NCBI RefSeq assembly: GCF_022678645.1
Contig: NZ_JALBWV010000007.1
Span: 1-64,000, forward strand
DNA length: 64,000 bases
Reading direction: 5' to 3'
Source: Saccharopolyspora soli
GTDB taxonomy: Bacteria; Actinomycetota; Actinomycetes; Mycobacteriales; Pseudonocardiaceae
Shown: positions 7,663-58,225 of the stretch, in pieces
Numbering within the stretch: position 1 is the stretch's first letter
How the letters are laid out: every line of letters starts with the position of its first letter
Translations under genes and position numbers: made by a program
Notes under the pieces: model-generated
Seen by the model: the letters and a program-made list of their open reading frames with translations, nothing else
The model's database searches: none
Told to the model about the DNA's origin: nothing

Positions 7663-8502
7663 GTGATCCGCGTCGGTGACGTGGCAGGGTGCCCGCTGAT
7701 ATCGAAAGGCACTCCCATTCCCGTTTTCTGTTCTTCCACGCTGGCCACCGTCGTGACCAGGTTGCGGGCCGCGGGCTGCGTGTTCGCCGAAGACGAGGCG
7801 CGGCTGCTCGTCGACGCCGCGGATGCTCCGGCGCAGCTCGCCGAGATGGTCCAGCAGCGCATCGCCGGTCGCCCCTTGGAACAGGTGCTCGGTTGGGCCG
7901 AGTTCTGCGGTCTGCGGATCGTCGTGGCACCTGGGGTGTTCGTGCCGCGTCGCCGCACCGAGTTCCTCGTCCGCCAAGCCGCCGCACTCGCCGGGCCGCG
8001 CGCGGTCGTCGTTGACCTGTGCTGCGGTTCGGGAGCCGTGGGCGCGGCCTTGGCCGCGTCGCTGCAAGACGTGCGGCTCTACGCCGCCGATGTGGATCCC
8101 CGCGCGGTGCGCTGCGCGCGGCGCAACATCGCAGGTGCTGGTCAGGTCGTCGAAGGCGATCTCTACGAGCCGCTTCCCGCCCGGTTGCGGGGCCGCGTGG
8201 AGATCCTGGCGGTCAACGCCCCGTACGTGCCCAGCGGGGAGGTCGCTTTGATGCCCGCCGAGGCCCGGCTGCACGAGCCGCGTGTGGCGCTCGACGGCGG
8301 CGGCGACGGGCTGGACGTCCAGCGGCGGGTGGCCGCGGCGGCGCCGCGTTGGCTGGCTCCGGGCGGGCACCTGCTGATCGAGACCAGCCGCCGCCAGGCG
8401 CGGCGCAGCTGCGAGCTCTTCGCCCGCGCCGGGCTGCTCACCCGCGTGGCGACCTGCGCGGAACTCGACGCCACCGTCATCATCGCGACCCGGCCCCGCT
8501 AA
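7663..8502 (+). CDS. PrmC/HemK-like N5-glutamine methyltransferase
   Basis: A 279-residue SAM methyltransferase of the PrmC/HemK family, whose best-known members methylate the GGQ glutamine of release factors. It has a helical N-terminal part, then VVDLCCGSGAVGAAL (SAM binding) near residue 121 and VNAPYVPSGE in place of the usual NPPY. The Asn-Ala-Pro-Tyr variant marks a divergent subgroup, so the release-factor role is not certain and another protein substrate is possible. The GTG at 7663 lacks a clear ribosome site and the first 25 residues look unlike the family; the true start may lie 60-90 bases further in. Confidence 0.75.
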   Translation: MIRVGDVAGCPLISKGTPIPVFCSSTLATVVTRLRAAGCVFAEDEARLLVDAADAPAQLAEMVQQRIAGRPLEQVLGWAEFCGLRIVVAPGVFVPRRRTEFLVRQAAALAGPRAVVVDLCCGSGAVGAALAASLQDVRLYAADVDPRAVRCARRNIAGAGQVVEGDLYEPLPARLRGRVEILAVNAPYVPSGEVALMPAEARLHEPRVALDGGGDGLDVQRRVAAAAPRWLAPGGHLLIETSRRQARRSCELFARAGLLTRVATCAELDATVIIATRPR

Positions 8503-8690
8503 AGACTGTTTCCAGAAGTGGTTTGCGCAGCGGTGCGGGTGGCGGAACCTCAGACGCCGCCTCGACTCCGGGATCCCCGACATCATGCCAATTCACCACG
8601 TCGGAGCTGTCCTCCCGAGGAGACGCCTGAGAACCCGCGGCGGTGCGAGCTGAGTCCCACACCGCAAGCGGCTACGCCGCTTACAACACA
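8501..8690 (+). repeat. Dispersed intergenic repeat, copy A
   Basis: This shares a core with copies at 56101-56282 and 58047-58225: GGAACCTCAGACGCC, then GGGATCCCCGACATCATG, then GACGCCTGAGAACCCGCGG, in the same order and near-identical spacing. A hairpin AAGCGGC-TAC-GCCGCTT (8666-8682) closes it, as in the other two. It begins inside the stop codon of the PrmC-like gene and fills the gap to the next gene. Its opening AAAGACTG...GGTTTGCG is shared with the degenerate copy at 15350. Confidence 0.8.
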
Positions 8691-8711
8691 GGCTCCAGGC
8701 GAGCCGGGCGT

Positions 8712-9242
8712 TCAGCGCTGGGCTTCGCGGTGCTTGGCGGCCATGGTCACGTAGTGCTCGGCGGCGATTTTCAGGCGGGCCTGCTCCTCGGCGGTCAGTG
8801 CGCGGCGAACCTTGCCGGGAGTCCCGGCGACCATCGAGCCCGGCGGGATCTCGGTGCCTTCCAGGATCACCGCACCGGCGGCGACCAGGGACCCGGCGCC
8901 GATGCGGGCACCGTTGAGCACCACCGCGCCCATCCCGATCAGGCAGTCGTCCTCCACGGTGCAGCCGTGCAAGACCGCTTTGTGCCCGACGGTGACCCTG
9001 GTTTTGATCTCGGCCGGGAAACCGGGGTCGGCGTGCACCACGCAGCCGTCCTGGATGTTGCTCTCGGCGCCGACGCTGATGTTCTCGCGGTCCCCGCGCA
9101 GCACGGTGTTGTACCAGATGCTGGCACCGGCGGCCAGGCGCACGCGCCCGATGAGCGCCGCACCGTGCGCCACGAACGCCGCCGGGTCGATCTGCGGACT
9201 GATCCCGTCGATGGTCAGGGTGAACGACTGCCCTGCGCTCAC
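8712..9242 (-). CDS. Gamma-carbonic anhydrase family protein
   Basis: A 176-residue left-handed beta-helix protein with hexapeptide repeats. The putative zinc histidines are in GCVVHADPG and in VTVGHKAVLHGCTV, matching the three-His pattern of gamma-carbonic anhydrases; catalytic activity is unproven in many homologues. The GTG start at 9242 overlaps the TGA of the GntR gene as GTGA, so the two are translationally coupled. Genes of this family often travel with CoA-transferase or acyl-CoA catabolic genes, as here, where a possible role is binding a CoA ester or handling carbon dioxide. Confidence 0.83.
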   Translation of the reverse strand: MSAGQSFTLTIDGISPQIDPAAFVAHGAALIGRVRLAAGASIWYNTVLRGDRENISVGAESNIQDGCVVHADPGFPAEIKTRVTVGHKAVLHGCTVEDDCLIGMGAVVLNGARIGAGSLVAAGAVILEGTEIPPGSMVAGTPGKVRRALTAEEQARLKIAAEHYVTMAAKHREAQR

Positions 9243-9997
9243 TTGCCCTCCTGGTTCTCGCGTTGCCGCCGCAGCCACTGCAGCGACGCCTCGGTGTGTC
9301 CGTCCACTTTGGTCTCGATGCCGTCCAGGAAGGCGCGGTCGCCGTGCACGGCGAGTTCGGCGAGCACCGCGTCGGGATCGCCGCCTTCGATGATCTTCAG
9401 CAGCCGCTGGTGGCGGGCCAGGTCACCGGCGAGGGTTTCCCGGTCCCGGCGGGCCCGCCGGTTGAGCGCCATGGACATCAGCACCTGCAGTTGCAGCGAC
9501 CGGTACGCCTCCTCCAGGCGCTGGTGCCCGGACAGGCCGACCACGGACAGGTGGAACTCGAAGGAGCATTCCCGGTAGCCCGGTTCGTCACCGGCGTCGA
9601 CGGCGTCGCCCATCCGCTGCAACGCCTGCGCGCAGCGGCGCAACCGGGCGGGATCGGTGACCGGGACCCCCAACCGCACCGCGAGGCGTTCGAATTCGGC
9701 GCGCAGCGTGCAGATCTCGTAGATGTCGTGCAGCGTCAGCGGGGTCACGATCACGCCCTTGCGCGGCACCTGCCGCACCAGCCCTTCGCGTTCCAGGACC
9801 CGCAGCGCTTCGCGCAGCGGCGGGCGGCTGATGCCCAGTTCGTGGGTCAGCCGGTTTTCCACGATGCGCTGCCCGCCCAGCAGCTCGCCGCCGATGATCA
9901 TGCGGCGCAGCGTGGCGGCGGCCAGTTCCACCAGGCTCGGGGGGCTGATGATGCTCGGGGCGCGGGTGGCGGCGGTGGGGCTGTCTTCAACGGTCAC
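9239..9997 (-). CDS. GntR-family regulator, FCD subgroup
   Basis: A 252-residue regulator. The winged helix-turn-helix includes VENRLTHELGISRPPLREAL and LEREGLVRQVPRKGVIVTPL at about residues 45-85; a helical FCD ligand domain follows, with the metal-site style DxxxH pattern. FCD regulators usually sense carboxylic acids. It is divergent from the CoA-transferase / tripartite transporter operon and coupled to the gamma-carbonic anhydrase gene, so it probably controls uptake and use of that carboxylate. Confidence 0.87.
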   Translation of the reverse strand: MTVEDSPTAATRAPSIISPPSLVELAAATLRRMIIGGELLGGQRIVENRLTHELGISRPPLREALRVLEREGLVRQVPRKGVIVTPLTLHDIYEICTLRAEFERLAVRLGVPVTDPARLRRCAQALQRMGDAVDAGDEPGYRECSFEFHLSVVGLSGHQRLEEAYRSLQLQVLMSMALNRRARRDRETLAGDLARHQRLLKIIEGGDPDAVLAELAVHGDRAFLDGIETKVDGHTEASLQWLRRQRENQEGK

Positions 9998-10181
9998 GAC
10001 CAGCAGTGTCTCCTTCCGGGGCCGGGCGCCGGGGTGCTTTGCGCGTCACCGGCGGCGCGCTGGTCCGCTTGGAGCAACCTCGACGGGTAAGCTTGTCAGC
10101 TTCATCCTGCCTGCTGTAGACAAAAGTCAGGTGATGCCGATCACGGTGTCCGGTTTTGTCCCGGATTTCTTGGAGCCGCGC
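9998..10181. promoter_or_regulatory. Divergent promoter region of gntR and CoA-transferase operon
   Basis: The 184-bp gap between two divergent starts must hold both promoters. It contains TGTAGACAA near 10115-10123, which resembles half of an FCD-GntR operator (TTGTCTACA reading the other strand). I see no complete palindrome. Assignment is tentative. Confidence 0.35.
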
Positions 10182-57873: not shown

Positions 57874-57932
57874 TGTGGATCTCCCCTCGAACAACACCGC
57901 AAGCTTTGTTTCAGCCGCGACATTATCCGTTC

Positions 57933-57947
57933 GCGGTCATCGACCGC
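57933..57947. promoter_or_regulatory. Short palindrome upstream of fabG
   Basis: GCGGTC-ATC-GACCGC lies next to GGATAATG (read toward fabG), a plausible -10 box at about 57924-57931. It may be an operator or part of the fabG-inhA promoter. No regulator is encoded nearby. Confidence 0.4.
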
Positions 57948-57978
57948 CCAGCGCCTCCATACAGAATTAGCTGCACCG

Positions 57979-58033
57979 TGTCGTGGTCCACCTACAGCGA
58001 CCACGACAGGCAGACTGCGCTACGCAGCCTGTC
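57979..58033. promoter_or_regulatory. Two overlapping, mutually exclusive hairpins
   Basis: Hairpin 1 has perfect ten-base arms TGTCGTGGTC (57979-57988) and GACCACGACA (57999-58008). Hairpin 2 has arms GACAGGC (58005-58011) and GCCTGTC (58027-58033) with an inner TGCG/CGCA. They share GACA, so only one can form at a time. The pair lies in the 387-bp divergent gap between fabG and the oxidoreductase gene, just before repeat copy C. Confidence 0.5.
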
Positions 58034-58046
58034 TTCCAACTCGTTC

Positions 58047-58225
58047 TGCGTGGCGGTGCGGGTAGCGGAACCTCAGACGCCGTCTCGGTCCGGGATCCCC
58101 GACATCATGTATGCCAATACACCACGTCGAGGCGGTCCTCCCGACACGACGCCTGAGAACCCGCGGCGGTGCCAGCTGCGAGGGTGGGCTAAGCGGCTTC
58201 GCCGCTTCGAGACAAGATCAAAGAC
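58047..58225 (+). repeat. Dispersed intergenic repeat, copy C
   Basis: About 179 bp in the same orientation as copy B and nearly identical. The hairpin is AAGCGGC-TTC-GCCGCTT (58191-58207) and it ends AGATCAAAGAC. It occupies most of the gap before the oxidoreductase gene; with copy B it brackets inhA-fabG as direct repeats. Confidence 0.9.

Follow-up and report, generated by a model that had tools for sequence, protein, structure and literature searches.

The stretch of DNA analysed here (the window) comprises 64,000 nucleotides of Saccharopolyspora soli (contig NZ_JALBWV010000007.1, positions 1 to 64,000) and contains copies of a dispersed repeat, of which there are about 210–220 in the genome (9.35 Mb, 184 contigs). 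The InhA protein encoded there is 87–95% identical to those of eight named Saccharopolyspora species, as expected for this genus. The folded shape of the repeat's core is maintained by compensatory base changes across species. We consider the repeat to be a non-autonomous miniature inverted-repeat transposable element (MITE) related to the insertion sequences (IS) of the IS5 type, with a conserved and probably strand-specific folded core, and we put the probability of this reading at about 0.72. The original prediction, made from the letters of the window, described an intergenic repeat of about 180 bp in four copies; its dispersed nature was borne out, whereas the count had to be raised to the genome-wide number given above and the length to about 200–215 bp including the ends.

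A single core with a covarying fold

An alignment of 89 full copies from the S. soli genome, distinct in their cores, showed that a single core of 164 positions, running from TTTGCG to a terminal hairpin, is combined with ends of at least three kinds. Each kind forms an imperfect inverted repeat: GAGCCTGTCTTCGAACTCG...CAAAGACAGGCA in type 1, GAGACTGTTTC...AAAACAGACC in type 2 and GAGGGTGCGCGGATTGG...CCAATCCGCGCGAGTTC in type 3. The terminal inverted repeats GCCTGTCTT/AAGACAGGC are found in type 1, and are weaker and varied in the other types and in other genera. The core folds into a long interrupted hairpin and a short end hairpin, with five helices in total (GCGGGT/ACCCGC; a 16-bp stem from CTCAG/CTGAG; CCCCGAC/GTCGGGG; TGTAT/ATACA; AAGCGGC/GCCGCTT). 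The loops between the helices, namely AGCGGAAC, GGGAT with CTGTCCTC, and ATCA with CCAC, are nearly invariant. The core is also an imperfect palindrome that matches its own reverse complement. The copies of the window, and the helices as located in copy C, are as follows.

8500..8502, + strand: TAA stop of the upstream gene (called as 7753-8502), the start point of copy A
8503..8697, + strand: copy A, complete, with type-2 ends AGACTGTTTCC...; core at 8522-8682, right boundary approximate
15352..15430, + strand: copy D, left half only, starting directly 3' of a TAG stop (15349-15351)
56079..56288, + strand: copy B, full, type-1 ends; core 56099-56263; end points approximate
58027..58239, + strand: copy C, full, type-1 ends GCCTGTCTT/AAGACAGGC; core 58045-58207; end points approximate
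58058..58063, + strand: helix 1 of copy C, left arm GCGGGT; right arm ACCCGC at 58159-58164
58072..58087, + strand: helix 2 of copy C, 16 nt, the main covarying stem, left arm; right arm at 58142-58157
58097..58103, + strand: helix 3 of copy C, left arm CCCCGAC; right arm at 58126-58132
58108..58112, + strand: helix 4 of copy C, left arm TGTAT; right arm ATACA at 58117-58121
58191..58207, + strand: terminal hairpin of copy C, AAGCGGC-TTC-GCCGCTT

The covariance model recovers the three full copies of the window with E values of 8e-37, 1e-35 and 4e-28. The positions originally given for copies A (8501-8690), B (56101-56282) and C (58047-58225) and the exact blocks common to them were verified, and so was the AAGCGGC/GCCGCTT hairpin at the end of each, with its differing loops TAC, TAGC and TTC. 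The inverted arms CTCAG and CTGAG, noticed at the same time, open the 16-bp stem of the core. What had been described as a degenerate copy (15350-15430) does exist, although as the left half of a copy only. As had been stated, copies A and D each start within a stop codon; gene calling by codon usage puts the ends of the two genes upstream at 8502 (TAA) and 15351 (TAG), respectively. Copy B adjoins the stop codon (TCA, 56289-56291) of an inhA-like gene on the - strand.

In A2, a MAFFT alignment of 36 copies (25 from S. soli, 11 from other species) that was not fitted to the structure, 92.7% of the cells pair, as compared with only 35–44% in slid versions of the structure. Double changes were found in 17 of the 42 pairs, and none of 500 shuffles reached the observed values; this test scored one pair as 47-100, for which the correct assignment, used in covariance model R1, is 47-101. 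The signal was also present in A4, which consists of 49 distinct rows, all from other genomes, aligned with fitting to the model. Double compensatory changes occurred here in 28 of the 42 pairs and in 279 cells (0 of 500 shuffles; 20–53 cells in slid controls), and removal of three rows in which the palindrome matched its own lower strand left 46 rows with 28 pairs and 271 cells, again unequalled in 500 shuffles. Whole arms are exchanged between species and between genera: helix 3, CCCCGAC/GTCGGGG, is swapped between species for CCCGTTC/GAACGGG, CTCGAAC/GTTCGAG or CCCCTCC/GGAGGGG, and the terminal-hairpin arm AAGCGGC is replaced elsewhere by ATGCGCC, AAACCGG or AAACGCC. In an unguided mutual-information scan, seven of the ten strongest column pairs belonged to the structure, and an eighth, 47-101 (C-G to G-C), was proposed by the same alignment and then added to it. 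RNAalifold returned a poor consensus on alignment A1, because insertions in the hairpin misalign A1. This very strong covariation across species agrees with the earlier suggestion of selection on RNA or DNA structure.

The imperfect pairs tolerated in a fold would be expected to be G.U if the upper strand folds, and to appear on the upper strand as A.C if the lower strand does. In A4 (46 rows, upper-strand model) we counted 15 G.U cells against 86 A.C/C.A cells, in 5 and 20 pairs, respectively. The corresponding numbers were 81 versus 183 cells and 14 versus 20 pairs in A3 (105 rows, mostly S. soli copies), and 14 versus 59 cells and 8 versus 16 pairs in A2, or 14 versus 37 cells when the dominant pair was left out. 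Since the corresponding single changes number 45 versus 33 in unpaired columns and 26 versus 35 in paired columns, a general mutation bias does not explain this wobble asymmetry. When copy C was compared with shuffles, the z score was -3.9 for the lower strand and -1.4 for the upper strand. The strand that folds is thus likely to be the complement of the one presented in the original prediction, the wobble pairs speaking for it and the free energies being neutral.

Distribution, target sites and direction

The central motif of the repeat matched the S. soli genome at 223 places with up to three mismatches, as compared with 9 for the reversed control, and the copies are almost equally divided between the strands (111 and 112). 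The right motif gave 210 matches (control, 3), the left motif 218 and a stricter left motif 209 (control, 0 for both). At about 210 copies of about 200 bp, the repeat makes up about 0.5% of the genome. The outcome named beforehand as a refutation, the window copies alone with no covariation, did not occur; within the S. soli genome, BLAST returned 372–383 loose candidates, 38–40 of which were scored. Several contigs end at or inside copies (C77:21-37; C108:99180-99196, with the contig end at 99215; C23:19-38), so that the repeat contributes to assembly breaks.

BLAST detected the repeat in 21 of the 22 Saccharopolyspora genomes. With no more than 11 candidates scored in any genome, covariance model R1 recovered the repeat from 69 of 249 Pseudonocardiaceae genomes, belonging to 14 of the 46 genera, and a plain motif search of the same sample arrived at the same figures (69/249 and 14/46), with 1 to 209 matches per matching genome, roughly 2,000 motif copies in total and at most one control match per strand. 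A class-wide sample of 394 genomes, with 7 candidates scored in each, gave two matching genomes, S. soli itself and another member of its family; with 11 and 7 candidates per genome and stricter filters, the family and class scans could have missed weak distant relatives. One copy comes from Amycolatopsis sacchari (L116). Seven genomes (G009, G144, G224, G073, G124, G133 and G053) have one motif match each, representing either recent arrivals or copies kept by selection, and the lone copies in G144 and G224 still score 154 and 164 bits. The plasmid and phage collections contained no match to copy B (BLASTN, E <= 1e-5), and a plasmid or phage origin was rejected on these grounds.

The sites examined differ between species. 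Copy A is missing behind the orthologous gene in all 20 other genomes that have this gene. The site of copy B is empty in S. kobensis and S. shandongensis, and S. indica carries another copy at this site, flanked by duplicated CTCA. At the site of copy C, no element is present in S. kobensis (L100) or S. indica (L101), and S. shandongensis (L099) has a shortened copy. In S. ipomoeae (L104), a shortened copy has the TAG of a gene at its beginning and another TAG behind it, and S. rhizosphaerae (L105) has a single TAG and no element at this place. Among type-1 copies, the same TNA was found on both sides in 9 of 11, with all four bases of the site identical in 7 (shuffled mean 4.6, p 0.0027), the 11 being those of 135 rows in which both ends were readable. 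These differences between species, above all the absence of copy A from 20 of 20 genomes, led us to reject the earlier proposal of a chromosomal binding site, in the sense of one at fixed positions.

Several type-3 copies lie, as judged by eye, inside short hairpins of copy-specific sequence, and type-3-like copies (L013, L046, L061, L063 and L065) sit in a second repeated palindrome starting with GTGAAGGGCACCTTTGACCAAC. An arm of the latter has one match in the window (54922-54943, 3 mismatches), between two convergent genes, and the palindrome may constitute a separate family of terminator-like repeats. In S. shandongensis, two shortened copies (L099:5472-5556 and 8912-8996) have a common internal change, GGCGGCCCCC..TGCGGGAGTTGC, and stop shortly beyond the central motif; they perhaps form a shortened sub-family.

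To count gene contexts, we used 133 distinct full copies after removal of duplicates, 91 from S. soli and 42 from other genomes; 29 of 125 S. soli hidden Markov model matches and 1 of 44 others had been dropped as partial or weak. The S. soli copies were mainly the 100 at the head of the list of 223 motif matches, all of them without mismatch, together with the BLAST loci and the window, so that decayed copies are under-represented, and a few of the counted copies are near-duplicates through segment duplication (L324, L325). The left-hand gene has its end on the side of the element in 100 of the 133 copies and its start on that side in 32 (p 2e-9). In tandem surroundings, the sense direction prevailed over the antisense (46 versus 20, p 0.002), and between convergent genes the left stop was the nearer one in 37 of 53 copies. 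In 83 copies the core was preceded by a stop at a distance of up to 35 nt, as compared with 35 copies in which it was followed by a convergent stop at up to 60 nt (p 1e-5). A further 38 copies, from eight genomes of four genera, again showed the left-hand gene ending towards the element (29 versus 7, p 0.0003) and a stop before rather than behind the core (21 versus 8, p 0.02). No called gene overlapped the core by more than 100 nt among the first-counted context copies, and in these contexts the repeat invariably lay between called genes. Because the left-hand gene ends towards most copies, which thus lie behind it, a riboswitch or regulatory RNA leader, also among the earlier proposals, was discarded as a general role. 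The adjacent stops in S. soli were TGA in 32 cases, TAA in 13 and TAG in 9, as compared with 151, 11 and 28, respectively, for the non-adjacent genes of all loci; such over-representation of TAA is expected if the stop itself is part of the target.

A possible partner was found in the best PF01609 match of the S. soli genome, an IS4/5-type transposase open reading frame that also matches PF13340. It is flanked by the inverted repeats GAGCCTGTTCTTGAACTTG.../GAGCCTGTTCCTAGTCTCG..., which are similar to the ends of the repeat. Relatives of this element carry the ends GAGCCTGTTCCTGAACT and GAGGCTGTTTTGGATCTTG; the relative with GAGCCTGTTCCTGAACT has it at both ends and comes from another genome. 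The earlier concern that the repeat might match the end of a known insertion sequence was justified for the ends, which do resemble those of an IS, and not for the core, which was unseen in that IS. A third IS5-type element of this kind, in G001, sits in the middle of a palindrome with a central CTATAG in each of the five copies that were compared (L269, L276, L282, L288 and L293), and this group seems to aim at hairpin centres.

A probable mobile element and its alternatives

The repeat is short, multi-copy and dispersed, and it has terminal inverted repeats, target duplications and empty sites in relatives, in agreement with the MITE-like element that had been listed among the possibilities; an IS5-type element with similar ends in the same genome is a candidate partner. 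In the mechanism that we favor, inverted ends of the IS5-family type (GAGCCTGT..., GAGACTGTTT...) would be recognised by a DDE transposase of the IS5 family, probably supplied in trans, and insertion would occur at CTNA or CTAR sites with duplication of about 3–4 bp, such ends and duplications being seen for part of the copies. Stops preceded by C (CTGA, CTAA and CTAG) would serve as target sites that are regenerated by the duplication; as the stop is re-made, insertion there should do little harm. Between the ends lies the core of about 165 nt, which, as the covariation shows, folds in single-stranded form to give an interrupted hairpin (6, 16, 7 and 5 bp) and a small end hairpin. The choice of target accounts for the stop codons and not for the direction. 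The orientation bias is probably best accounted for by the purging of insertions that would make the folding strand part of the transcript of the gene before it, for which ERIC repeats offer a precedent (see the next section). We lean towards the view that the core is kept for the spread or persistence of the element itself, with a role on neighbouring transcripts as the alternative, because the positions change between species while the fold stays.

Several observations weigh against this reading. The core is better conserved than the ends, whereas a MITE should show the reverse. Relatives of the IS5 transposase (E <= 1e-20) occur in just 9 of the 22 genomes of the genus, and seven genus genomes without such a relative hold 53 to 201 motif copies, so that this transposase is at most a candidate for the present mover, which may be extinct. 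The two IS copies with both ends read have the flanks TGA and TCA and no exact duplication. In the further set of copies, the left stop was the nearer in 6 of 12 convergent cases, that is, evenly. As regards the strand, substitutions in paired columns lean the opposite way (26 versus 35), so that the wobble argument rests on mismatched pairs only. The free energy of the lower strand was the lower one in 21 of 45 cases in A4 (p 0.61), in 34 of 57 in A1, and in 60 of 103 in A3, where the preference was only slight (p 0.04).

One possible alternative is that the repeat is a benign or useful 3'-end module, an upper-strand terminator or message stabiliser that was spread by transposition and is retained in the sense direction behind stops. 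The sense bias behind stops in both sets of copies (83 versus 35 and 21 versus 8) and the terminal hairpin of the listed full copies are consistent with such a function. However, no T run was found 3' of the terminal hairpin in the 89 listed copies, which have sequences such as CAAAA, ACAAAA and GCCTGAC instead, and the wobble pairs indicate the opposite strand. Furthermore, none of the 20 other genomes with an orthologue of the copy-A gene has a copy behind it, so that at least this gene is independent of the repeat, and we regard the 3'-end module as unlikely.

We likewise think it unlikely that the fold acts, as single-stranded DNA or RNA, in the movement of the element, either as a hairpin for a recombinase or HUH enzyme or as an RNA for a nuclease or transposase, with the IS5-like ends being secondary. 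Conservation of the core above that of the ends, the variety of ends, of three kinds or more, that surround a single core, the preference of wobble pairs for one strand, the fixed orientation relative to the stop and the high-scoring single copies in some genomes would all suit this explanation. On the other hand, a DDE transposase would account for the target duplications and inverted repeats, the called genes beside four single- or few-copy loci look ordinary by eye, and motif matches are equally numerous for the left half (218) and the right half (210), with no sign of one-sided truncation. The ordinary neighbours also led us to reject a gene carried beside the single copies, and the symmetry of the half-copy counts to reject retrotransposition with one-sided truncation. 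A further proposal, also unlikely, is that the core represents a new class of mobile structured nucleic acid, in which a lower-strand hairpin (RNA or single-stranded DNA) would take part in its own placement behind stops in a fixed orientation, borrowing its ends from available IS5-type elements. Replication template switching within the quasi-palindrome, rather than selection on the fold, is a very improbable source of the compensatory changes, for although the core is an imperfect palindrome, such switching would tend to erase the asymmetric loops, which are retained in the other genera sampled, and should show no strand preference in wobble pairs.

Relation to known repeats and significance

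Rfam 15 gave no match in the window at the gathering threshold, and at E <= 1 in L001, L116, L189 and L185 a microRNA model alone matched once, outside the element; a known RNA family was therefore rejected. The likeness to IS5-family insertion sequences (PF01609 with PF13340) lies in the end sequence GAGCCTGTTC... and in sites that are TNA or centred on a palindrome, whereas the repeat is without a transposase and its folded core was unseen in the IS read. Integron attC sites consist of an imperfect palindrome behind a stop codon and fold on the lower strand. The repeat resembles them in being an imperfect palindrome behind a stop codon and probably also in the strand that folds, although here the element itself comes and goes, and not a gene cassette.

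Among dispersed bacterial repeats, ERIC (also IRU or RU-1) is described as an element of about 127 bp in enterobacteria (PMC2759123), with terminal inverted repeats, target duplication and a stable RNA fold; its effect on upstream messages is reported to depend on orientation, such messages in Yersinia being made less stable by one of the two orientations (PMC2229807). Terminal inverted repeats, target duplication and a fold are also found in the repeat described here. Our repeat differs in belonging to another host family, in having a fold backed by compensatory changes from many species, and in its target, which is CTNA/CTAR with some sites containing TA; judged by description and not letter by letter, the two have no known relation in sequence. 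YPAL (RU-2) of Yersinia, according to PMC2229807, is about 168 bp long with target duplications of 3 to 26 bp and internal inverted repeats, its targets span or adjoin dyad symmetries, and it is said to be co-translated with upstream genes. Several of our type-3 copies also lie within hairpins, as judged by eye, but the repeat here has terminal inverted repeats, unlike the internal ones of YPAL. The BOX, RUP and SPRITE repeats of pneumococcus, according to PMC3049150 and PMC2229807, have many interspersed copies (108 for RUP), predicted folded transcripts, ends like those of resident IS and an excess between convergent genes. Many dispersed copies, IS-like ends and folding are common to them and to our repeat. 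BOX is modular and RUP uses the TA sites of IS630-Spn1, whereas no modular arrays were seen for the repeat here.

No description of the repeat was found in the consulted parts of the open-licence literature on Saccharopolyspora or actinobacterial repeats, MITEs and small RNAs, nor in those of two S. erythraea papers (PMC3610266, PMC3827479). The repeat is apparently an undescribed counterpart of bacterial repeats such as ERIC and BOX. By kind it groups with ERIC, YPAL, BOX and RUP, and its host range, target and covariation distinguish it, as far as we have seen, from these repeats.

Taken together, these results provide a well documented bacterial repeat in which the fold is preserved over many species while the insertion sites change. 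Pseudonocardiaceae are major producers of antibiotics. With the covariance model, annotators could name or mask the approximately 2,000 motif copies counted in the 69 genomes of the family. The repeat can also be used to test whether folded bacterial repeats serve the messages of the host or their own spread.

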